This document shows positions 17,410-29,527 of a DNA stretch of 39,439 nucleotides, in pieces. The notes under the pieces are model-generated. The model made no database searches. It saw only the letters and a list, made by a program, of their open reading frames with translations, and was not told where the DNA came from. The position numbers and the translations under genes were made by a program. This DNA comes from Candidatus Roizmanbacteria bacterium (GTDB lineage Bacteria > Patescibacteriota > Microgenomatia > UBA1406 > GWC2-37-13): assembly GCA_016201695.1 (NCBI GenBank), contig JACQCK010000020.1, positions 1 through 39,439 on the forward strand, read 5' to 3'. Position 1 is the first letter of the stretch. Every line of letters starts with the position of its first letter.

Positions 17410-17502
17410 TATACCCGTCTTACACTGGTTTGCCCGGCTTAGCGGGGTCAAAGCAGTTTAGAGGGGTATATACTCGAGCAAATTCATTTGCGAGTGGTAT
17501 AT
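17410..17502 (+). repeat. 93-bp dispersed repeat, copy 1
   Basis: Matches 29184-29276 in inverted orientation with 3 differences in 93 bp. The ends are inverted repeats (TATACC ... GGTATA). Inside are a 15-bp CCCGGCTTAGCGGGG stem-loop (imperfect here, perfect in copy 2) and GCAAAT-TC-ATTTGC. It lies between divergent genes (DUF47 on the left, glycosyltransferase on the right) and its TATA-like ends contribute to promoter-like sequence on both sides. It may be a MITE-type element or a shared regulatory site. Confidence 0.85.
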
Positions 17503-17526
17503 TATACAACTTTGATAAACTGGGAT

Positions 17527-19041
17527 ATGGTTTCCGCTATTCTAAGTCGGCGCCGCGCTTTCTGGTGGCGTAAATTTACCTCCCGCAACGTCCTATTACT
17601 GTTGATTTTTCTTTTTATTATTCTTCTTCGTTTTTGGAAAGTGGCCGATCTGTTTAACTTCACCTTCAGCGAAGAGCACCAAGCCCATCTCGCCTGGGAA
17701 CAGGTCAAAAACTTTCACCCCATTTGGATCGGAGTCAGCGCCGCCAATATTAATTATTACCTCGGCCCCGGTGTCACTTATCTTAATGCCCTGCTTTTTT
17801 TCTTATCAAAAGGTGATCCGGTTATACTGGCCTATTTTTCCGCGATTCTTGGTTTAGCCACGACCATAAGCCTTTATTATCTTGTTAAAGAATTATTTTC
17901 CAAAGAAGCCGCTCTTTTTACCACCATCATCTACGGAGGTTCAACTTTGATCAATTTTCACGATAGAAGATTCTGGAATCCGACGCCAATACCATTTGTG
18001 ACCGTGTGGTTTATTTTTAGCCTGATTAAAGCACAAAAAGACACCCGCTGGTTTATCTTGACAGCGATACTGGTGGGGACGGCTTTTCACACCCATTTAA
18101 CGCTTCTTTTATTTTTAGTTCCGGCAGCATTTACCGCGGTTAGAAACATAAAAAAAATAAAATTGAGTACCTGGTTGGCGATTGTAGGCTGTTATCTCAT
18201 CATTACCTCACCCCTGATTGTCTTTGACTTAGTTCATAATTTCGACAATATCTTAATGCCGTACCGGGTTTTAACCGGTAAACAAAGGCCGGCTTTAGAA
18301 ACCTTCACCCGCCAAAATACTATTAGTCATATCAAAGAGCTATTATCGGCGACGGGGCGCATCTGGTTTATCAAGTTTAATACTAACCCGCAAGACCAGA
18401 TAGTGCTTGAGTCGCACGCGGACAAGGCGCCGGGGAATATAGCGCTGTCTTTACTATCTTTTTTGGCTCTTGGATCGTTTCTTCTAAAAAACCGACGGAA
18501 AGGATATGAAAGTTTTTTTATTTCATTTTTTGTCATTTTGACGGCCTTTATTCTTTATCCAAGCTACAACCCGGAATATTATTTGATGAGCTTTCTTACT
18601 CTTTTGACCGTTGCCATTGGTTTTTGGCTTAATGAGATACCTAAACCGTTAGCTTTTGTGGTGGTCGTTTTTTTTCTGATCGTTAACCTGGTGACCGTTC
18701 TGACCATGTCAACAAAGTATGGCCTGATGGCCAAAAAAAAGCTCATACGAGCAACCATGAACACAATTAAAAATCAAAGCTTCACACTGCAGACAGACGG
18801 AGCATTAGTAGAAAAAGATTTCACTTATGCCGGCTGGAGATATTTGTTTAAGGCTTACGGTAAGACTCCGACTCAAAGCAATATTGACAAAGTTTTAGGG
18901 TGGATTTATCCGGATGAACTAAGCCAAAAAAAGTCAAAGCTAAAAGTGATCGTCGCCGACACGGTCGAGCTGAATTTGAGCGAAAAGCCATTGGCTGTTT
19001 ATCAAGTCGGAGTCTATCGCGCCTACGTTTTTCGTAATTAA
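17527..19041 (+). CDS. GT-C-fold membrane glycosyltransferase (PMT/ArnT-like, GT39/83 type)
   Basis: A protein of about 504 residues with about ten membrane helices. After the first helix comes the acidic loop FSEEHQAHLAWEQ, the DE-type catalytic loop of PMT_2-like enzymes that move sugars from polyprenyl-phosphate to lipid or protein acceptors outside the membrane. The later FHDRRFWNPTPIPF loop is typical. The soluble C-terminal stretch (about 415-504) is small. The ATG at 17527 is chosen; a TTG at 17512 sits 6 nt after a TATTAT box and could be a leaderless alternative. The 93-bp repeat lies directly upstream. Confidence 0.78.
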   Translation: MVSAILSRRRAFWWRKFTSRNVLLLLIFLFIILLRFWKVADLFNFTFSEEHQAHLAWEQVKNFHPIWIGVSAANINYYLGPGVTYLNALLFFLSKGDPVILAYFSAILGLATTISLYYLVKELFSKEAALFTTIIYGGSTLINFHDRRFWNPTPIPFVTVWFIFSLIKAQKDTRWFILTAILVGTAFHTHLTLLLFLVPAAFTAVRNIKKIKLSTWLAIVGCYLIITSPLIVFDLVHNFDNILMPYRVLTGKQRPALETFTRQNTISHIKELLSATGRIWFIKFNTNPQDQIVLESHADKAPGNIALSLLSFLALGSFLLKNRRKGYESFFISFFVILTAFILYPSYNPEYYLMSFLTLLTVAIGFWLNEIPKPLAFVVVVFFLIVNLVTVLTMSTKYGLMAKKKLIRATMNTIKNQSFTLQTDGALVEKDFTYAGWRYLFKAYGKTPTQSNIDKVLGWIYPDELSQKKSKLKVIVADTVELNLSEKPLAVYQVGVYRAYVFRN

Positions 19042-19071
19042 CAGATAAGGTATCCCGACGGTTGGAGAGAT

Positions 19072-21930
19072 TTATTGGGGAGGAGTGGAGGGGGCGGGAG
19101 GGGGAGAGGTAGGCTGTTGGGGTGGCGGTTGGGTTGGTTGAGAAGTCGGCGCCGGTTGGGAATTTGAGCTCCCGGTATGTTCACAACCGCAGGCATTATT
19201 TACCCAACTGATACAGGTGCCACCGCTTGCCTTGCAGGCCGCTTCCTGACTGTCATGACTTGGGCCGGAATTTTCTCCGGAAGAAGTTTGATTATTAACA
19301 CAACTGGACCCGTTCCAATACTGCCCGGACGAACAAGATCCATAACCTGAAGGCGGCGAAGTAGTGCCGCCGGTCGGAGGAGTGTTACTATTGATACAGT
19401 AACTACCATTCCAAGAGGTGCCGGAACCACAAGGTGGTCGACAGGCACAGGTTCCCTGATCCCAAGAATACCCCGCTTGACAGCCGCTGGACGGAGGAGT
19501 ACAGGCCGATGGATAAGAATAATTATCTCGACAGGCGCAAGATCCTTGATCCCACCATTTTCCCGCTTCGCAGCCTCGATCGGGCGGTCGACAGCTGGTA
19601 TTATCGGTGTTGCCTGACCATTGTTGTGAGCTTCTTTCGCAACCACAGGCTCCGTTTGACCAACTGACACAAACTCCGCCACCGGCCCGACAGGCTGCTT
19701 CCTGACTTTCACGACTGGGCGAGTAATCTCCCGGTCGTGACGAATTGGCATTAAAGCCTGAACATTTGCCCGGATTAGCCTTACACCAGTCGTAACACTC
19801 ACCGGGAGTCCGGCAGTTGCCCATTTGCGAATTGGGTACGCCGCCGCTGCCGCCACTGGTGCAGGAACGGTTGAAAGACTCATAAGTTTGACCGGTTGGG
19901 CAGGAGACCGAGCCGGCGTTGGGGGCCGAATCCTTGCAGTCTTTGCCGTCCCAAAATTTGCCGCTCTGGGAACATTTCCAGGCTTCCGATGATTTTTCTC
20001 GGGGCGTACAGATACCGCCGGGACCGAAGTACTGATCGGACGGACAACCGCCGCCGGTTTGGCTGTAGTTATAGCTGTCTCCAGCGCAGTAACCGCCTTG
20101 GGGGCTAATTGGTTCCGGCACCCAGTGCTGACCGCTCGAACAGCGTTGCACCGGCGGATAGAAAGGTTGGGGATAAGGTCCGGGGTTAATACTAATTGGG
20201 GGCAGGGGACCGGTTAAAAAATTAGTCGTTGTATCGGGTAGACAACCGCCGCCCTGATAATTACGGTGATAGCCTACCGGACAAGCGAAGTCGGCTAAGT
20301 TACCGCGATCATCCCGCTGCTCATAAATTGGGGTGTAGTTGGGGATACAGTAACCGCCCGACGGGTCATAAGGCACTGAGACAAAATGAGTGTTGCTGGA
20401 ACAGTTGATTTTAGCGGGGCCTCCTTGAAAGGTTGTTGGGGTAGTGTTGTTGATGCAGGAGTTGACAACGGTCCAACCGGTCGGTAAACAATCGGCCGGG
20501 TAGGCGCTGCAGGCGCCGGTTTGCGAGCTTTTGGCCGAGACGATATTACCAGTACAGTTTACGGGATTGGAGTTGATGTTGGGTGGCTGCGGCGATAGGT
20601 CTGGTTTAAAGTTTTCGGGAGCGCAGTAGCCACCGGTACTATCAGATCCGGACCCGTTCAGTGATTTGAACCATTTTTGGCCGGTGCCGCAGGCGGCGCC
20701 GTAAACATTACCCAGATTATACATCCGCTGATATTCTGGCGGCAGATCGTCAACGCTCGTTTTATTTTTGCTCAAATAGTTTCCCAAAAAAGCCAGATCC
20801 TGCGGCCTGGGTTTCAACCGTTCGACGATTTCGCTAAACTTTTTTTGGTCGTCCTGATTGTTTTGAAATAAATCCGAACTGATGAGATCCGGCCTGAAAG
20901 TGGTTTGAATTTCCTCAAGATGAACGATCGGACCCCAGTACCTGCGGATGTCAGGCGGGACGGTGTCGCCCGGTTTATAAGTTTTGGCAAACTCCTGCAC
21001 TTTCTTTAAGGTTGTTTCGGACGGTTTTTCTTCTTCTAACTGTTTAAGAGTATAAAATCTTTTTATCTCGTGGATTTCGTAGAAGTCCTTCGGAAAGTAA
21101 TTCTTGACATTTTCATCCATTCTTAGAAAGTCGGCTTCCGGCATGATGCCTCCCTGGACAAATTTCTTCAGTTCCTCCCTGGCCTCGGTGCGGGTTTTCA
21201 GCGCGATTATTTTACTTACCTCTTCCTCGGTTAACAGCCCCTGGGCCTTTAAAGCGGAGAGGCGGTCAACCATGTCTGTCGGCAAGGCCGGGCGATTGGT
21301 CAGATCCGCCAACTTATCGCTACTTGATTCGCTAGAGGAAACGGCTTTCAGCACCGCTTGTTTAGCTTGCTGCGGGGCTAAAACGGCTACTTTTTCCAAA
21401 GCAACGGTGTGTTTGGCGGTTTCCACGTCAACGAGCTTGATCAGATCGTCAACATTTTGTTTGTTTTTCTTCATCTTTTCAATTTCGGTCGCCACCGTAC
21501 TCATCGTTTGTTCATAGCCTTGCGCTGCCGCCTGAATCGCCCGACTATCACCCTTCTTAGCCATTTTTTGGGCTTCATCAAGCCTTTCTCCCGCAATGTT
21601 AACTTTCAATTTCTCCTTATCCTGTGCATTGAAAGTGGTCGCCAGTTGGATTTCTTCCTGAACGGTTTTTAAGAAATGAAAGGGATTATCGGGGGTAAGA
21701 TTGCCGAAAATAAGATAACGGTTAAACTGGAGGAAATTTTGGGAGCTACTTGGGGTGGATTCTTTGCCGGTTTCCCGGGCAGAAACGGACAGGCCCAACA
21801 CTTTCTGATTTTCCAGTTCCAGGGTTGTACTCCAGTCATAAAAGCGCCGGGGCGATTGGGCGAAGGCCGGAGGAACAAGCCACAGAAAAAAAATAACCAA
21901 ACCGACAACGACGACAGAGTATCGGCGCAT
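19072..21930 (-). CDS. Large secreted Cys-rich repeat protein with DUF5667-like region
   Basis: A 952-residue exported protein. A signal peptide (MRRYSVVVVGLVIFFLWLVP..., cleavage after PAFA at about 24) is followed by a helical region at about 80-200 (NPFHFLKTVQEEIQLA ... GERLDEAQKMAKKGDSRAI) matching DUF5667, seen in many CPR surface proteins. A charged helical part (to about 385) leads to a long Cys-, Gly- and Pro-rich half with repeated CxxGxxW(D/N)Gxx C units. A 24-residue unit beginning SQEAAC occurs at about 740 and 892. The tail is Pro/Gln/Ser-rich. It is probably cell-surface and disulphide-bonded, perhaps adhesive. A near-consensus promoter lies upstream. Confidence 0.8.
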   Translation of the reverse strand: MRRYSVVVVGLVIFFLWLVPPAFAQSPRRFYDWSTTLELENQKVLGLSVSARETGKESTPSSSQNFLQFNRYLIFGNLTPDNPFHFLKTVQEEIQLATTFNAQDKEKLKVNIAGERLDEAQKMAKKGDSRAIQAAAQGYEQTMSTVATEIEKMKKNKQNVDDLIKLVDVETAKHTVALEKVAVLAPQQAKQAVLKAVSSSESSSDKLADLTNRPALPTDMVDRLSALKAQGLLTEEEVSKIIALKTRTEAREELKKFVQGGIMPEADFLRMDENVKNYFPKDFYEIHEIKRFYTLKQLEEEKPSETTLKKVQEFAKTYKPGDTVPPDIRRYWGPIVHLEEIQTTFRPDLISSDLFQNNQDDQKKFSEIVERLKPRPQDLAFLGNYLSKNKTSVDDLPPEYQRMYNLGNVYGAACGTGQKWFKSLNGSGSDSTGGYCAPENFKPDLSPQPPNINSNPVNCTGNIVSAKSSQTGACSAYPADCLPTGWTVVNSCINNTTPTTFQGGPAKINCSSNTHFVSVPYDPSGGYCIPNYTPIYEQRDDRGNLADFACPVGYHRNYQGGGCLPDTTTNFLTGPLPPISINPGPYPQPFYPPVQRCSSGQHWVPEPISPQGGYCAGDSYNYSQTGGGCPSDQYFGPGGICTPREKSSEAWKCSQSGKFWDGKDCKDSAPNAGSVSCPTGQTYESFNRSCTSGGSGGVPNSQMGNCRTPGECYDWCKANPGKCSGFNANSSRPGDYSPSRESQEAACRAGGGVCVSWSNGACGCERSSQQWSGNTDNTSCRPPDRGCEAGKWWDQGSCACRDNYSYPSACTPPSSGCQAGYSWDQGTCACRPPCGSGTSWNGSYCINSNTPPTGGTTSPPSGYGSCSSGQYWNGSSCVNNQTSSGENSGPSHDSQEAACKASGGTCISWVNNACGCEHTGSSNSQPAPTSQPTQPPPQQPTSPPPAPSTPPQ

Positions 21931-21937
21931 TTACTTT

Positions 21938-21966
21938 ATAGTAAATAACTAGTTTTACTTTGTCAA
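21938..21966 (-). promoter_or_regulatory. Promoter of the large secreted protein
   Basis: On the minus strand: TTGACA (21961-21966), a 17-nt spacer, TACTAT (21938-21943), then 7 nt to the ATG. Consensus -35 and spacing together with the 7-nt gap indicate a leaderless transcript. Confidence 0.7.
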
Positions 21967-22063
21967 CAGATAATAGAGGTACATATACCATGAACTCATG
22001 TAAAATTACCATATATCGTCACGTCATGTAGTATTTTCTTCTTGCATTCTATACCATATAAAC

Positions 22064-24586
22064 ATGGATACTTCAATTCTTCTTAAAGATGGATATATTT
22101 TGGATAAAGCAACTAGCAAGTCTGTTGATTTTAAAAAACCAGAAGAAGCGGTCAGACAAGAATATGAAGAAATTCTATATAAAGATTATGGTTATAACTA
22201 TGCCCAAATGGATATTGAAGTTAAAATTCAGAGAGGTGAAATTAACAATAAAAAGAATGAAAAAGAAAGAGCAGATATTGTAATTTATAACTCAATAAAT
22301 ACAACTCTAAGAGATCAAAATAATGATATTCTTGGAATTGTTGAAACTAAAAAGCCGACAAAAAAAGAAGGAATAAAACAACTTATGAGCTATATGACAG
22401 CTACTTCCGCTCTTTGGGGAGTTTGGACAAATGGACAAGAAATTGAGTATGTGTATAGAGACCCCAAAACAGGTGGAGTGAAATCAGACTACATTTTTCA
22501 GATACCACATGAAGGGGAAACGTTTGAGGATATAGGGAGAATAACAAAAGACGACTTAAAACCTGTTAAAAATCTCAAACCTGTTTTTAGAAGAATTTTC
22601 TATACGCTTTACTCTAATACGAATATTAGCCGTAAAGAAAAACTTGGAAGCGAGATGACACGACTTATTTTCTGCAAAATTTATGATGAACTATACGATA
22701 CTGATAAGGCTCCAAAATTCAAAATAGGCTTTGAAGATAGTCCAGAAGAAGTTAAAAAAAACGTTGAAGAACTATGGCAAAGGGTTAAAGGTTCTCTTGT
22801 AGATGAAGGTGTTTTTGAAAAACATGAAAAAATAGTCTTAGATCCAAAGTCCATAATGTATATTGTTGGAGAGCTTGAAAGATACAGTTTGACCAAAACT
22901 AATAAAGATGTCGTAGGAGACGCTTTTGAAGTTTTTGCTGAAAGGCAATTTGTAGGCGACAAGGGAGAGTTTTTTACACCTAGACAGGTGGTTAAAATGG
23001 CGGTAGAGATAGTTAATCCACAACCAGAGGAAAAAGTGTTAGACCCAGCATGCGGAAGCGGTGGCTTCTTAATCTACGCATTAGAACATGTTTGGGGCAT
23101 TATGGATAACAGCTCACGTTATAAAGGTAGTAACCTAGAAAATGCTAAAAAAGAATTTGCTCAAAAGCACTTTTTTGGAATAGATAAAGAAATTGACTTG
23201 GTTAAAATCTGTAAGGCTTATATGTCAATTATAGGAGATGGAAGAAGTAATATCGTAAAAGCGGACAGTCTCAAAAATCCAGATGAGTGGGAAAATGTAG
23301 CCCGCACAGTATTAACTACAGATGGAAAAGACGATATGAAGAAGTTTGATGTAATTTTGACCAATCCGCCCTTCGGAAGTAAAATAAAAGTAAAGCACGA
23401 TTATATATTAAAAAAGTACGACTTAGGTTATAAATGGGAGCAAAAGAATGGAAGATGGGTAAAAACAAATCAACTAAAAGAAAAGGGGGCTGAACCACAA
23501 ATACTTTTTATTGAACTTTGTCTAAATCTCCTTAAAGATGGCGGAAGACTTGCCATTGTATTACCAGATGGTATTTTCGGTAATCCGACAGACGGCTATA
23601 TTCGGGAATGGATAAAAGATAAAGCAGAGATATTAGCAATAATTGATTGTCCTCATAATACTTTTATGCCACACACTCATACAAAAACAAGTCTTTTAGT
23701 CCTTAAGAAGTGGGAAAAAACAAAACAAAAAAACTATCCAATTATGATGAGCGTAGTTAATAAATGTGGACACGATACTCGTGGAAATGAACTATATAAA
23801 AAAAATAATAAAGGAGAAGAAGTTTTAGACGAAGAATTTTCAAACAGTACAGAAATTTATAAAATAAATAAAAACAGAGTTATTAAGGGTTTTGACCGCC
23901 TTGGTTTTACTTTATATGAAAGTCATTTAAAGAATGGTATTTTAATACCTCGTTATTATGATCCTGATACGATAAAAGAGCTTGATGCTATAAAATCGTC
24001 TGGTAAGTATGAAATAAAATCTGTTCAAGAATTGATTGACGAGAAAATTTTACAGATAAAAGGAACTGGTGGGACAGCTTCAAGTAATGAATATAACATT
24101 TATGATACTATTCCCTTCCTTAGAACTTCTGATATTGGAGCTTGGGAAACACGTAATTATGCTGTTCAAAACGTCAACGAATTAACATATTTGAAATATA
24201 AAGAAAAGCAGGATATACAAGAAGGTGACATTCTCTTTATAAAAGATGGGACATATAGAATTGGAGAAACAATAATACTTACTGAATACGATTTGAAAAT
24301 GCTGGTTCAAAGCCATTTCTTAAAAATAAGGTCACTTGATAAAAGTAAATTAGACCCTTATCTATTTCTATATCTTTTATATGTTCCCATTGTTAGAAAA
24401 CAAATAGACGAAAAAACCTTCGTTCAAGCAACTTTATCAACAATAGGAGATAGACTAAACGAAGTAATTATTCCAATTCCTAAAGAAGAGAGCGTAAAAA
24501 AAAGAATTACAAAAGACATAAGAGAAAGATTGCTAAATAGGGCAAAATTAAGAGTAGAGATAAATACAATTTTACATGCAGTATGA
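22064..24586 (+). CDS. Single-chain restriction-modification enzyme (HsdR-N nuclease + HsdM + HsdS-like TRD)
   Basis: An 840-residue protein with three parts. The N-terminus (1-150) resembles the HsdR N-terminal PD-(D/E)xK nuclease: Asp71, then GIVETKKP (Glu94, Lys96) and Gln107. The centre (about 170-560) is an HsdM-like adenine-N6 methyltransferase with DPACGSGGF (327-335) and NPPFG (434-438). The C-terminus (about 630-835) is one HsdS-like target-recognition half with FLRTSDIGAWE and GDILFIKDGTYRIG. This matches Type IIG/IIL-style enzymes that cut and methylate in one chain. It is clearly more AT-rich than its neighbours and is followed by an IS, so probably acquired. TATACC (22050-22055) ends 8 nt before the ATG. 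Confidence 0.85.
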   Translation: MDTSILLKDGYILDKATSKSVDFKKPEEAVRQEYEEILYKDYGYNYAQMDIEVKIQRGEINNKKNEKERADIVIYNSINTTLRDQNNDILGIVETKKPTKKEGIKQLMSYMTATSALWGVWTNGQEIEYVYRDPKTGGVKSDYIFQIPHEGETFEDIGRITKDDLKPVKNLKPVFRRIFYTLYSNTNISRKEKLGSEMTRLIFCKIYDELYDTDKAPKFKIGFEDSPEEVKKNVEELWQRVKGSLVDEGVFEKHEKIVLDPKSIMYIVGELERYSLTKTNKDVVGDAFEVFAERQFVGDKGEFFTPRQVVKMAVEIVNPQPEEKVLDPACGSGGFLIYALEHVWGIMDNSSRYKGSNLENAKKEFAQKHFFGIDKEIDLVKICKAYMSIIGDGRSNIVKADSLKNPDEWENVARTVLTTDGKDDMKKFDVILTNPPFGSKIKVKHDYILKKYDLGYKWEQKNGRWVKTNQLKEKGAEPQILFIELCLNLLKDGGRLAIVLPDGIFGNPTDGYIREWIKDKAEILAIIDCPHNTFMPHTHTKTSLLVLKKWEKTKQKNYPIMMSVVNKCGHDTRGNELYKKNNKGEEVLDEEFSNSTEIYKINKNRVIKGFDRLGFTLYESHLKNGILIPRYYDPDTIKELDAIKSSGKYEIKSVQELIDEKILQIKGTGGTASSNEYNIYDTIPFLRTSDIGAWETRNYAVQNVNELTYLKYKEKQDIQEGDILFIKDGTYRIGETIILTEYDLKMLVQSHFLKIRSLDKSKLDPYLFLYLLYVPIVRKQIDEKTFVQATLSTIGDRLNEVIIPIPKEESVKKRITKDIRERLLNRAKLRVEINTILHAV

Positions 24587-24624
24587 AAAAAAGGGGTAAA
24601 AGAACACTATCTAAAAAGGCTATA

Positions 24625-24647
24625 ATCTCAAAAAAAAGGTTTGAGAT
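24625..24647. repeat. Hairpin between RM gene and transposase
   Basis: ATCTCAAA and TTTGAGAT form a perfect 8-bp stem around a 7-nt loop. Related TCTCAAAA words recur at 24651 and 24671. It lies between the convergent RM and transposase genes, but neither strand has a following T-run, so terminator function is unproven. Confidence 0.35.
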
Positions 24648-24664
24648 ACTTCTCAAAAAAGCTG

Positions 24665-25509
24665 TCACGATCTCAAAACCTTAACTAAGGCTACTTGAGA
24701 AAGAAGAACATTAAACATTCTATTTTCATTTTTACGATTATTGTATCTAAATGCAAATTCATCTACATATGCTTGTAAATGTTTTTTACTAACGTGACGA
24801 TAAACTCCATAAATTCCCCGCTTTAGATGACTCCAGACATTTTCAGCATTTTGAGTATAAATATCTCCTACTCTAAAATTCTTTTTATGATTTATGCTGT
24901 AATGGTTATAACCCAACTTTTTAAGTTGATAATAACCTGCATATTCATCTGTCATAATTCTTGCTTTTGGTGAAACAAATTTATTTATTTGTTCAATTAC
25001 TTTCCACCTTTTTTAATCATTCCCATAACTACTTCTTTTGGTTTTTCATTTCCATGCCAAACTTTCATTCGGTTATAGCCTTTTCCGCCAACAAACGTTT
25101 CGTCAATTTCAACATCTCCTTCAAGAGGAGTTATATCCATGTCTGCCATCAATTTTCTGATTTGATGAAACATTCTCCATGCGGTTTTATAGGTTACACC
25201 CAATTCTCTTTGTAATTGTTTAGCCGATACACCCGCACGAGTATTTATCATTAGAAACATAGCATAAAACCATGAAGTTAAAGGAGTAGTTGTTTTTTCA
25301 AGGACTGTTCCTGCAAGTGGAGAGATTTGATGATTACCACCAAATTCACATTCGTACACAGGTCGCCCTTTTACCTTGTAATACTTTGTTATTTTCTCAC
25401 ATTGTTTACAGAAAATTCCATTAGGGAAACGGGTATTTTTTATCGCTTCTAAACATTTCTCGTTAGAGCTATAAACCTTTAGAAAGTCAGAGTAAGTAAA
25501 TCTATCCAT
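24665..25509 (-). pseudogene. IS1595-family (ISXO2-like) transposase, split by a frameshift
   Basis: Two frames together make one transposase. The first (24997-25509, 170 residues) has the N-terminal zinc ribbon (FCKQCEKITKYY), the HTH-like SAKQLQRELGVTYKTAWRM, and the first catalytic Asp in VEIDETFVGG. The second (from about 25000 down to 24665) has TDEYAGY with the second Asp and NAENVWSHLKRGIYGVYRHV, then FAFRYNNR. The switch falls at or after ATT-AAAAAA-GGTGG (near 25012-25022), and a -1 shift restores VIEQINKFVSPKARIMTDEYAG. The run is not in the classic A-AAA-AAG phase, so I favour a disabling mutation, though slippage is possible. Confidence 0.85.
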
Positions 25510-25626
25510 ATATCCTTATCTTAACATATTATTTACATGTTGTCAAGGGATAAGTGCCATAATAGATAATAAGATATCGATCTGGTAAGGACATTATCAG
25601 AGGGTCGGTAAGACAGCCTTTTTCAG

Positions 25627-26193
25627 TCAAGGGCGTTTGAGTATAATCGTACTATGCGCACGAGGAATCCATTTTTCGCCGGGATACCGCTCTTCTTTAT
25701 AGACGCTCGGAACGCTTAGTGAAAAAGCAACTGAAGGTACTCTCACCGGAGTGCTTAGCTTCCATAAGGCGTTATGGAAGTCTTGATCATGTCGCAGTAG
25801 TTGACCGGCCGATTTCAGATTATCAACAGTAGATAGGTCGAACTGAAGATCTACATCAGAGGTTGGTATTACGAATCCAGTTATTGACGAGCCCCAATTA
25901 CGAGCAGAAATTAGTTGTGTCTGTCGAGAAGTTAACGCGCCGATCGTAAAGGTCAAAATTATACTGGCTGCTTGAGCAAACTTTACGGCCAGTTCAGGGC
26001 TAAGTATACGGATGTCGTTAAAGTATCTTATTTGCTTAATGCCTTTTTCTTGCAAAGCGTTAATTAATCTAGCCACTTTTTCCGGATCAACCCGAACGAC
26101 ACTTATTGGCCCGTTTTGCTCGGTAATAGTCGTTTGTTTTAAATCGTCAGTCAGAAGGTCAAAAATATTTGCTCCGCCTTCATTATCAATCAT
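25627..26193 (-). CDS. Nucleotidyltransferase-superfamily protein, uncharacterised
   Basis: A 188-residue protein. RNWGSSITGFVIPTSDVDLQF (99-119) is a good match to the nucleotidyltransferase hairpin hG[GS]x(9-13)Dh[DE]h with Asp113 and Asp115. The remaining N-terminal helices and the C-terminal VPSVAFSLSVPSVYK segment are unfamiliar. Such proteins adenylylate small molecules, proteins or RNA ends. The ATG directly abuts a TATAAT (26194-26199); another AT-rich box (GATAAT 26206-26211) lies upstream, so the promoter assignment is open. It is followed on the same strand by the IS and lies downstream of the Doc pair. Confidence 0.6.
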   Translation of the reverse strand: MIDNEGGANIFDLLTDDLKQTTITEQNGPISVVRVDPEKVARLINALQEKGIKQIRYFNDIRILSPELAVKFAQAASIILTFTIGALTSRQTQLISARNWGSSITGFVIPTSDVDLQFDLSTVDNLKSAGQLLRHDQDFHNALWKLSTPVRVPSVAFSLSVPSVYKEERYPGEKWIPRAHSTIILKRP

Positions 26194-26280
26194 ATTATAC
26201 GCATAATTATCTCATTTTTTTTTCGTCTTATTCTTTGTCGATATTCTTCATTATTAAGATAGGCTAAGGACCCTACTTTA

Positions 26281-26676
26281 TTATAATTGATGCCATGACA
26301 GAAAAGAAGGTAATAATTCACGCTTCAGAATACGAGGGTGGTTGATAAGAAGCTTTCGTCCCTCCCCGCTATTAAGAACTTCTTTTTTTGAACACTGTAT
26401 TTCATATCCATTTAAATTAAGAAATCTTAGAGAGGTAAAAAATCCGGTTCTTTTGTTTCCGTCATTAAAGGGATGGTTTTTTATCAGTGAATGAATCAAG
26501 GATGCGGCCTGTTTCCATACTGTTTCATAAAGTAACTTTCCTCCAAAAGTTACTTTCGGTAGTTCAACCGCGGAATGCAGAAGACTGAAATCGCGGATTC
26601 CTGCTCTTCCGCCGCCGACCGCAAGCATCTTCTCATGTATGAGATAGGTTTCGGTAAGATCAACATATCTGGTCAT
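26281..26676 (-). CDS. doc: Doc-type Fic toxin
   Basis: A 131-residue Fic-fold protein with the Doc signature HPFNDGNKRT (about 68-77) and the preceding helix KQAASLIHSLIKN. Doc proteins phosphorylate EF-Tu and stop translation; classic Fic enzymes transfer AMP. The Lys in GNKR is the Doc variant. The C-terminal 35 residues (from about CSKKEVL) do not look like the usual Doc ending and may reflect drift or a late frameshift. It starts 1 nt after the antitoxin stop, so the two are coupled. Confidence 0.85.
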   Translation of the reverse strand: MTRYVDLTETYLIHEKMLAVGGGRAGIRDFSLLHSAVELPKVTFGGKLLYETVWKQAASLIHSLIKNHPFNDGNKRTGFFTSLRFLNLNGYEIQCSKKEVLNSGEGRKLLINHPRILKRELLPSFLSWHQL

Positions 26677-26677
26677 A

Positions 26678-26923
26678 TTACCTATTGGCCAGTTCTTTTA
26701 TCACGTTCTCGTATTTCTTCGCGGTGTTTTCCAGCCAATGAAAAAATTCAGGAGTTAAACTTTTCATTCCGCTAGCCTCTTTAGGTTTAACAAGCAACAT
26801 TTTGTGTTCGATATCGTGTTCAACTACAACCTGATCGCCGACTTTATAACCGGTTTCTTCAATAAAGGATTTGGGTATGGTTAAAGCGACCGAGTTACCG
26901 ACTCTAATTATTTTCTGGGTCAT
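26678..26923 (-). CDS. AbrB/MazE-fold antitoxin of the Doc pair
   Basis: An 81-residue protein. Residues 1-50 (KIIRVGNSVALTIPKSFIEE, then KVGDQVVVE) form an AbrB/SpoVT swapped-hairpin DNA-binding domain. The C-terminal helix (LTPEFFHWLENTAKKYENVI) is the likely Doc-neutralising segment, equivalent to the Phd tail. It is the first gene of the pair. A palindrome at 26939-26955 overlaps its promoter and is the probable autoregulatory operator. Confidence 0.85.
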   Translation of the reverse strand: MTQKIIRVGNSVALTIPKSFIEETGYKVGDQVVVEHDIEHKMLLVKPKEASGMKSLTPEFFHWLENTAKKYENVIKELANR

Positions 26924-26937
26924 ATTATTAACAATTA

Positions 26938-26975
26938 ATTATAACAATGTTATAACAAGGCCAATCGCTTGTCAA
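26938..26975 (-). promoter_or_regulatory. Promoter and palindromic operator of the AbrB-Doc operon
   Basis: TTATAAC-3 nt-GTTATAA (26939-26955) is a 7+7-bp inverted repeat just upstream of the antitoxin. On the minus strand TTGACA (26970-26975) precedes TATAAC (26949-26954) at 15 nt, and TATAAT (26938-26943) lies 14 nt before the ATG. The palindrome covers both possible -10 boxes, as expected for repression by the antitoxin. Confidence 0.6.
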
Positions 26976-27010
26976 GTTTTTTTTGTTTTTGTTTGATATA
27001 ATAGTCTAAA

Positions 27011-27580
27011 GTGAGAATCGACGCCAGATATTATCAAACTGTTAGAGATATCAACAGAGTTTTCCACTTGGAAAAAAGAACTCCGTTAACCGAAGCCGAA
27101 ATGCTTAGTTGTCTAAAAGATCCTGCCGCCGGCAAATTCCCGTCCCTAGAGACGGCCTTAGAGGCAAGAAAAGCCACGCTGCCGAAATCTTGGAGTGTTG
27201 CCAATGTTCTCGCGGCGACCTGTGCAGGAGTCGCCGGTATTTTAAGAGCAGATATGAGATTGCTTTCGTTGGTACCGCAAGAAGTCAGTCTGATAGTCGA
27301 TAGTGATAGTGTACAACCAAACAAAATCCATGAACCGATTGAGATGGCGGCTTTTGTGGTGAGTTATGCCGATGGAAAAGATTTTCAAGGTAATGTCCGT
27401 GTCTTTCCTCCTTATGATTATTATAGAGGCTATACCGGCCTACCTCATTCCTGTATTCCGGTTAGTGGTTATCCGCCGGGATGTTATGATTCCTCTTTAT
27501 TCAATCTTGAGACAAGAATGTTTACGCCAATCGGAGCAAGATTGGTTGACTTTGTCGCGAGGACAGTCGAGGCAAGATGA
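27011..27580 (+). CDS. Hypothetical protein
   Basis: A 189-residue protein without recognisable family motifs. The N-terminus is basic and helical; there is a short hydrophobic stretch (VANVLAATCAGVAGIL, about 63-78) too short to call a firm membrane helix; the C-terminal half is Tyr/Pro-rich. TATAAT (26997-27002) ends 8 nt before the GTG start, giving a leaderless message. It is divergent from the AbrB-Doc operon. Confidence 0.55.
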   Translation: MRIDARYYQTVRDINRVFHLEKRTPLTEAEMLSCLKDPAAGKFPSLETALEARKATLPKSWSVANVLAATCAGVAGILRADMRLLSLVPQEVSLIVDSDSVQPNKIHEPIEMAAFVVSYADGKDFQGNVRVFPPYDYYRGYTGLPHSCIPVSGYPPGCYDSSLFNLETRMFTPIGARLVDFVARTVEAR

Positions 27581-27617
27581 GTCAATCAGAGAAGCGCGCG
27601 TAGGTCTTCTTAATAAG

Positions 27618-28505
27618 TTAAGTCCATAACCGTATATTCTTTTTTGTTTCTTCAACAAGTTTATTGGAAAAATATTTGTTTAGATCAACCAGTATTTTCC
27701 TGGTGCCATAGATCGGATTGCCGTTAAGAATGCTTAGCAATTCTTTTTTGTCTTTAAATAAGCTTTCTTGAGTGTTTTTAACAAGACTGCTTAGCATATT
27801 CCAAATCTTAAAACCGGTCGTGAAAACAACACTGTCCATGTTTTTACCGGTGAAGAGTTTATTTTCTTCCTGCTGCACCTGTTGATAAATCTGAAGGGCG
27901 TGAAACGAGGCTTGGAGGTTGTTTATCTGATCCTGTTTTAAATATGGTTTTAGGTTTTTAATAAGGGTCAACCCATTTTTACTAAGTAAAATTAGTACTT
28001 TTTCGCTGATCCAGCTTCTTCTATCGGTAATGTGCAGTCCGGCCGCAAGCACCCTAACGATGTTTTCCGCCCGCAAATAATGCCAGCCGAGGGGGCTTCG
28101 AGGATACTCTTCGAGGTCAAGAGGATAGTCGTATTTATAGTAATGACTGTCCATGGCCGATTGAAAAAGAAAAAGCAGGACGATGAGAGAGACCATTTTG
28201 TCGCTGTCTGATAGCAGTTCTAGCCTAGGCAAGGTCTTGGCAACTGCCTGGCAGAATTTGAGGTAGAGGCGAAGATTGTTTAGTAAATCCCGCCTGAATT
28301 TTGCCGGGTGATTAATATACGTTGCCAGTTCCATTGGTGAGAGCGGGGGAGCGAACTCATCTTTGGCCCAGTTGATGAAGGCTTCGTCTTTGGTGTGCGG
28401 ATTGTCTTTATAATGCGTCATTTTAGGACTGATGACGATCTTGTTTAACGCCGGCAGGTTTTTTTTGGTGAAGCCGATTTTTTCAAGGACGAGTCGGGTT
28501 AGCAC
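27618..28505 (-). CDS. Hypothetical helical protein
   Basis: A 295-residue, Leu/Lys-rich, mostly helical soluble protein; no family is recognised. SHYYKYDYPLDLEEYPRSP (about 122-140) is its most distinctive stretch. It uses a GTG start with TATAAT (28514-28519) ending 8 nt ahead, so it is probably leaderless. It converges with the gene at 27011 and follows the methyltransferase on the same strand, with its own promoter. Confidence 0.55.
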   Translation of the reverse strand: MLTRLVLEKIGFTKKNLPALNKIVISPKMTHYKDNPHTKDEAFINWAKDEFAPPLSPMELATYINHPAKFRRDLLNNLRLYLKFCQAVAKTLPRLELLSDSDKMVSLIVLLFLFQSAMDSHYYKYDYPLDLEEYPRSPLGWHYLRAENIVRVLAAGLHITDRRSWISEKVLILLSKNGLTLIKNLKPYLKQDQINNLQASFHALQIYQQVQQEENKLFTGKNMDSVVFTTGFKIWNMLSSLVKNTQESLFKDKKELLSILNGNPIYGTRKILVDLNKYFSNKLVEETKKNIRLWT

Positions 28506-28556
28506 ACAGGGAAATTATACTATATTGCGGTTAAGTAAAATCTCCTCGCCTGTTTT

Positions 28557-29138
28557 TTACCTTTTGACTGCCGAGATTTCGTGAATAGAGATCAAAGACT
28601 CGTCTAGTTTGGTAAGACCGGTAACCAGATATTGCGAAAAGTCCGTTCCATAACCTTCGATCTGACGAAGCTTGAGCGTTCTTTGCTTAACGGAAAATCC
28701 GGCGTTTTTGGCGAGTAAAGACGCTTTTTTAGGCCCGCCGTATAGTCTATCAGGACTGAGTAAGCGCTCAAGTAAAGATTGGGGCGGATCAATATCTTCG
28801 AGCAAGAGGTGAACGCTACCCGTTCTTTTTAAGACTCTATGTAATTCCAACCAAAATCCTTGTTGTGTCGCTAAGGCGAGTAAAAGACTGTCGTAAGGGA
28901 AAAGTATTTCCACTTTATTAACGCTCTCGTTGCCAACCGGTAACGATCTGATTCCTCCATCAATAAAGGCGTTAGCAACAACTGGTGGAGTACCATATGT
29001 TTGTTGACAACTAATGAGTCGTTCCGGATTTATATCGACTCCAATCCGTAAGGTTGACGATGGATCGCCGTTGATATAATTACCGCCAAATCCGATACCA
29101 AGGTCAAGGACGCGTGTTTTACAGCCTTCTGCCGACAT
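28557..29138 (-). CDS. Class I SAM-dependent methyltransferase-like protein
   Basis: A 193-residue protein with motif I VLDLGIGFGGN (10-20) and motif II IGVDINPERL (32-41), then VEILFPYDSLLLAL at the position of motif IV and a post-motif WLELHRVLKRTGSVHLL. This is the class I methyltransferase core without extra domains. The catalytic substrate-specific segment is not diagnostic. Its promoter (TTGACA/TATACT) lies between the gene and the second copy of the 93-bp repeat. Confidence 0.7.
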   Translation of the reverse strand: MSAEGCKTRVLDLGIGFGGNYINGDPSSTLRIGVDINPERLISCQQTYGTPPVVANAFIDGGIRSLPVGNESVNKVEILFPYDSLLLALATQQGFWLELHRVLKRTGSVHLLLEDIDPPQSLLERLLSPDRLYGGPKKASLLAKNAGFSVKQRTLKLRQIEGYGTDFSQYLVTGLTKLDESLISIHEISAVKR

Positions 29139-29148
29139 AAAGAAGAAA

Positions 29149-29177
29149 AGTATATCGTTTCACAAAAAAGATGTCAA
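29149..29177 (-). promoter_or_regulatory. Promoter of the methyltransferase gene
   Basis: Minus strand: TTGACA (29172-29177), 17-nt spacer, TATACT (29149-29154), 10 nt to the ATG. The -35 begins 6 nt outside the 93-bp repeat. Confidence 0.65.
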
Positions 29178-29183
29178 ACTGAT

Positions 29184-29276
29184 ATATACCACTCGCAAAT
29201 GAATTTGCTCGAGTATATACCCCTCTAAACCGCTTTGACCCCGCTTAGCGGGGCAAACCAGTGTAAGACGGGTATA
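29184..29276 (-). repeat. 93-bp dispersed repeat, copy 2 (inverted)
   Basis: Inverted relative to copy 1 at 17410-17502, with 90 of 93 positions identical. Here the inner stem-loop CCCCGCTTAGCGGGG is perfectly self-complementary. It again lies between divergent genes: the methyltransferase promoter on one side and the pfpI fragment on the other. Confidence 0.85.
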
Positions 29277-29303: not shown

Positions 29304-29527
29304 GTGAAAAAAGCACTCATTCTTACCGCCGATCAGTTTGAAGATATGGAAGTCATGTATCCATTGTTCCGTTTGCAAGAGGCGGGTTGGTCGGTAGTCG
29401 TTGCGGCGCCAAAAAAAGACAGTTTATCCAGGAGCGAATTGCAGAGTATAAGAAGATTCTACATAGTTCTCAATGATGTGAATTGACCACAAGCGGACGA
29501 TTAGATTTTTTGGTAATATTACCTGGT
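29304..29527 (+). pseudogene. Truncated DJ-1/PfpI duplicate
   Basis: The first 38 codons (MKKALILTADQFEDMEVMYP, then LFRLQEAGW) are nearly identical to the intact gene at 30643. After AAPKKD the frame is lost, but decayed similarity continues: DVN, a stop, then DDY(D)FLVI.PG near 29498-29527 matches VNPDDYDLLVIPGG of the full gene. The catalytic Cys region is absent. Similarity ends where the dehydrogenase start codon begins, so a duplication joint lies here. A 60-codon product could be made from GTG 29304 but would be non-functional. Confidence 0.7.

Follow-up and report, generated by a model that had tools for sequence, protein, structure and literature searches.

A probable IS630-type MITE family with paired hairpins in Candidatus Roizmanbacteria

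Two nearly identical segments of a Candidatus Roizmanbacteria contig are, with a probability that we put at about 0.93, copies of a non-autonomous IS630 (Tc1/mariner-like) transposon, i.e., a MITE. The window analyzed here (39,439 nucleotides) is the whole contig C16 of a 985-kb genome in 57 contigs. The first-pass annotation had described an inverted pair of 93 bp with three differences, and re-alignment gave the same count: 17410–17502 (+) differs from the reverse complement of 29184–29276 (−) at exactly three positions (27, 31, and 46), whereas the flanks of the two segments are unrelated to each other. The true unit is 92 bp long (17410–17501 and 29185–29276), with TA at either end of an 88-bp core. 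The 93rd base is common to the pair by chance, because other copies in the genome end at GGTATA. These boundaries were set by the eight full genomic copies and an empty site (see below). The unit has the termini TATACC...GGTATA and no coding content. The second window copy was matched with an E value of 2e-39; with eight full copies in 985 kb, chance is excluded. The features are as follows.

17410–17501 (+): MITE copy 1, 92 bp including one TA per end, 88-bp core; defined by the eight copies and the empty site
17410–17436 (+): left terminal inverted repeat of IS630 type (TATACCCGTCTTACACTGGTTTGC...); best window of the element class with the profile of ten IS630 ends
17478–17501 (−): right terminal inverted repeat of IS630 type (TATACCACTCGCAAATGAATTTGC); second-best profile window of the element class
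17410–17470 (no strand): hairpin 1, 61 bp, includes the left end; fold and covariation
17469–17501 (no strand): hairpin 2, 33 bp, includes the right end and shares a TA with hairpin 1; fold and covariation
29185–29276 (−): MITE copy 2, inverted relative to copy 1 and differing from it at 3 positions; sequence match
29250–29276 (−): left terminal inverted repeat of copy 2; homology to copy 1, copy class profile-tested
29185–29208 (+): right terminal inverted repeat of copy 2; homology to copy 1, copy class profile-tested

Copies in the genome and in its relatives

The genome (G000) contains eight full copies on six contigs, 89%–100% identical and with unrelated flanks: the window and C11 carry two each, and C5, C53, C42, and C36 carry one each. 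A solo hairpin 2 is present on C34. Identity to copy 1 reaches 97% or more in six of the eight, which suggests a recent spread of the element. Similar DNA was found in 14 of 72 family genomes with a patchy distribution, and a covariance model gave matches in 20 of 83 order genomes, with 44 matches in the genome G005 alone. The matches in G005 and in another genome, G059, include sister subfamilies of 92–104 bp that are built in the same way. Among named records, the carriers are Candidatus Roizmanbacteria and, in one case, Gottesmanbacteria; both belong to Microgenomates. No match to the element was found in the phage, plasmid, and viral records searched, and comparison with Rfam families gave only tRNA matches in the sources scanned, with no structured RNA family.

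The further copies that the first-pass annotation proposed to look for thus exist: six more full ones in the genome and many in relatives. They leave virtually no probability for a local duplication without mobility, for which nothing speaks beyond the two window copies themselves. It is also very unlikely that the pair is a recombination switch inverting the 11.7-kb segment, or forms the ends of a composite transposon. The two near-identical inverted copies would fit such a role, as would the low-GC stretch (0.33–0.34) with a restriction-modification-like gene between them and a second inverted pair on C11. However, inverted pairs are expected among eight randomly oriented copies, 92 bp is a short substrate, and the opposite order was seen in no relative (just 4 further family genomes have PhoU-type homologues).

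Target site, outer ends, and candidate partner transposases

The empty-site comparison rests on loci of G005, not on the two window copies. At one filled site (L037), the element lies inside another repeat as GGCATC-[TATACC...GGTATA]-GTCTGTCATTCCC, and at a second (L038) it lies inside a copy of that repeat as GGTTTC-[TACACC...GGTATA]-GTCTGTCATTCCC. A third copy of the host repeat (L112) is unoccupied and reads GGTATC-TA-GTCTGTCATTCCC. Because this unoccupied repeat has one TA, TA is the target and is duplicated on insertion, in agreement with the target duplication suggested by the first-pass annotation, which had also called for a search for empty sites. The net gain of the filled over the empty site is 90 bp, i.e., the 88-bp core and the duplicated TA, and the insertion consensus of the host repeat is GGYWTC-TA-GTCTG. 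If the host repeat was itself mobile, the two filled sites may go back to one ancestral insertion. Nesting at TA was likewise observed among sister elements, one inside another. The host repeat is a dispersed sequence, AATGAACTACCTCGCAGCAGAGCTGCGAGGTATC...GAGGAATTAAACCACTAAGGT, observed at L112, L114, L115, and L117 of G005 and at L108 of the genome G002.

Both outer ends of the MITE match the ends of IS630-family insertion sequences from the same class. An end profile (a weight matrix of positions 7–27 of ten IS630 ends, with TATACC left out) was run on ten exemplars from six subfamilies. In 8 of the 10, the two top windows were exactly the two outer ends; in the remaining two, the right end was one base off in one, and the other (L025) fitted at its right end only. 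The inner arms of the hairpins did not fit the profile. The IS630 end pattern had 113 matches in G005, compared to 0 for the reversed-pattern control. The exact outer inverted repeat is merely 6 bp long, and further inward each end is closer to the IS630 profile than to the other end.

The search for full-length parents, another item proposed for checking, gave full-length relatives with matching ends in other genomes. IS630-family transposases (PF13358) are rare, with matches in 2 of 17 genomes. One of the relatives, L120 in G059, encodes an intact 353-aa transposase (DDE_3/PF13358, E value 1.4e-30), which was matched in 10 of 373 class genomes. It begins at base 1 of its contig, has the boundaries TATACCC...GGGGTATA, and carries the ends TATACCCTTCTCAACTAAGATTGCAAC and TATACCCCTCGTCAATTGAATTGCAA. 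The ends of the other IS630 relatives consist of TATACC, about 14 bp, and TTGCAA. A decayed relative in the genome G067 (L121, 931–1662) has two in-frame TAG codons and lies at a contig end; its left end, TATACCCATCTTACTCCAGTTTG, is common to MITE subfamily C.

The PF13358 search of G000 and G005 returned no IS630 transposase. Multi-copy insertion sequences tend to end at contig edges in short-read assemblies, and several partner insertion sequences do so in the relatives. Because they break there, little weight attaches to the absence of IS630 from the own assembly, and IS630 genes may have been lost from the assemblies. Judging from the shared ends, the enzyme that acts in trans is most likely one of the IS630-family transposases present in relatives; it remains a candidate because the own genome gave no transposase match. 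By analogy with the IS630 family, from which the cut-and-paste chemistry is borrowed, such a transposase would bind and cut the two outer ends of the MITE, and the 88-bp core between the TA dinucleotides would move to a new TA, which would become duplicated. Taken together, the dispersed copies, the TA empty site, the IS630-like outer ends, and the insertions into another repeat, into sister elements, and in frame into a gene (see below) bear out the MITE reading that the first-pass annotation had offered.

Another IS630-ended element, ~150 bp long and with a longer interior (TATACCACTCTGCTTTGATTTTGCAAC...GGGGTATA), was observed at L199 (genome G004) and at L190 and L210 (G002). At L190, two left ends of this element lie 175 bp apart as a direct repeat.

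Paired hairpins

The TATACC inverted ends and two palindromes noted in the first-pass annotation are both present. The element folds as two adjacent hairpins, with a DNA folding energy of −22.3 kcal/mol compared to −8.3 kcal/mol for shuffled sequences (z −6.75), and, unusually, each outer end is a palindrome of its own as well. Across 21 sequences, 94.9% of the pairs are standard, and both partners are altered in 12 pairs, of which 11 belong to hairpin 1. Covariation scored 0.277, compared to 0.132 in shuffles (0 of 500). The arms of hairpin 1 change jointly among copies, also within a single genome: the tip stem is AACCC/GGGTT in the C36 copy and CCCGC/GCGGG in the other copies of G000. Possible sources of this covariation are selection on the hairpin, recombination of variants, or repair-driven correction of palindromes. 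These features could indicate a distinct MITE architecture, in which each terminal repeat is made palindromic and the hairpins are maintained because a cruciform, single-stranded, or RNA form serves movement or spares the host; we consider this unlikely.

Two strong covarying hairpins would also be expected of a REPIN- or IS200/IS605-like palindromic element, with the hairpins as its ends and single-stranded movement by a Y1 transposase (RAYT). Y1_Tnp genes were indeed present in all 15 genomes tested. However, a significant copy of the element was located near only 1 of the 30 Y1/RAYT loci scanned, and the RAYT at that locus is bordered by a different palindrome of its own (GCCGACCGATGTACAACCTCGG). 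The IS630-like outer ends and the TA duplication at the empty site argue in the same direction, which makes this explanation highly improbable. A Y1/RAYT partner was rejected from the search of the 15 genomes and the surroundings of these transposase genes, as the sole neighboring case has its own repeat. In the genome G021, a RAYT gene (L055, 1140–1930) has the palindrome GCCGACCGATGTACAACCTCGGAGGTTATGCAAAGGTCGGC on both sides and likely represents a REP system in Roizmanbacteria.

The two hairpins were also considered as independent mobile modules, but this reading was dropped: the whole 92-bp unit is missing at the empty site, and the outer ends alone fit the IS630 profile. When solo hairpin 2 copies were viewed as possible ends of a larger element, the copy at L012 proved to have a convergent gene pair around it and no transposase in its vicinity.

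Gene context and comparison with known repeats

Copy 1 has a PhoU-like/phosphate transporter pair on one side and a PMT_2 glycosyltransferase on the other. The neighbors of copy 2 are a methyltransferase and a DJ-1-like fragment, the latter followed by a 2-hydroxyacid dehydrogenase. Adjoining copy 2, 29305–29490 (+) encodes what we take by eye to be the N-terminal third of a DJ-1/PfpI-type protein (VKKALILTADQFEDMEVMYPLFRLQEAGWSVVVAAPKK...); it ends early and looks like a gene remnant. As the first-pass annotation stated, each window copy is flanked by divergent genes, but this setting applies to only two of the eight genomic copies and is therefore a coincidence. Others have tandem genes around them, adjoin a tRNA, or, in one case of the eight, sit inside a coding gene. 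The one strong promoter-like match (TTGACA-17-TATACT, 29177–29149, −) was found on the methyltransferase side, just outside copy 2, whereas none was found at copy 1, and in neither window copy does a match fall inside the element. For the window copies, the suggestion that the MITE supplies promoters thus found no support.

The other suggestion, a shared operator or promoter of a regulon that is under selection at divergent promoters, would be in line with the divergent genes around both window copies, the TATA-like ends, and the covariation in hairpin 1. It is extremely unlikely given the tandem, tRNA-side, and in-gene settings of the other copies, the lack of a promoter match inside the element at either window copy, and the patchy occurrence across the family.

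The in-gene copy (L005, on C11) is inserted in frame and adds 90 bp, i.e., 30 stop-free codons, to an O-antigen-ligase-like gene whose 418-aa product carries a Wzy_C (O-antigen ligase) domain. Homologues occur in 64 of 72 family genomes and mostly align to either side of residues ~190–220. The inserted stretch is missing in 8 of 9 aligned homologues; in the ninth (L175), the insertion place is taken by a different sequence of about the same length. In the same reading frame, copy 1 has a stop that results from its own substitutions. The in-frame copy is a testable example of a mobile repeat that lengthens a cell-envelope protein.

Mobile repeats that carry no gene and borrow a transposase are well known in other bacteria. 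In open-licence literature, part of which was judged by title and abstract, we found no description of a MITE in Patescibacteria, a group of ultra-small uncultured bacteria; the kind is already known, and in that literature neither the family nor its presence in Patescibacteria seems to have been described. By description, the element is most like RUP of Streptococcus pneumoniae, which is 107 bp long and linked to IS630-Spn1 (PMC2229807). The two have a similar length, TA ends and a TA target, IS630-like ends, many copies, and insertion into other mobile elements. They differ in host group, and in the present element the ends are also palindromic and no IS630 transposase is present in the assembly. 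Correia elements of Neisseria (about 100–155 bp, with TA ends and long terminal repeats; PMC2229807) are similar in size, TA ends, and terminal repeats, but they include proven promoters (PMC10969869), whereas no promoter was detected in the window copies. Rickettsia palindromic elements (about 100–150 bp) occur as in-frame insertions within protein genes (PMC10969869, PMC2229807); in the present genome, a single copy of the eight lies in a gene, and the ends are of IS630 type with a TA target. REPIN/RAYT systems are likewise short, dispersed, and rich in hairpins, but the present element has IS630-type ends and a TA duplication, and the RAYT examined has its own repeat.

These results add a well-supported family of small mobile repeats, together with candidate IS630 partners, to Patescibacteria. 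Genomes near 1 Mb are often viewed as streamlined; in contrast to this picture, G005, at about 1 Mb, carries over 100 IS630-type ends.

In the low-GC stretch (0.33–0.34) that separates copies 1 and 2 of the window, 22064–24586 (+) encodes a restriction-modification-like protein with HSDR_N_2 and N6_Mtase domains, and a Fic-domain protein is encoded nearby at 26281–26676.
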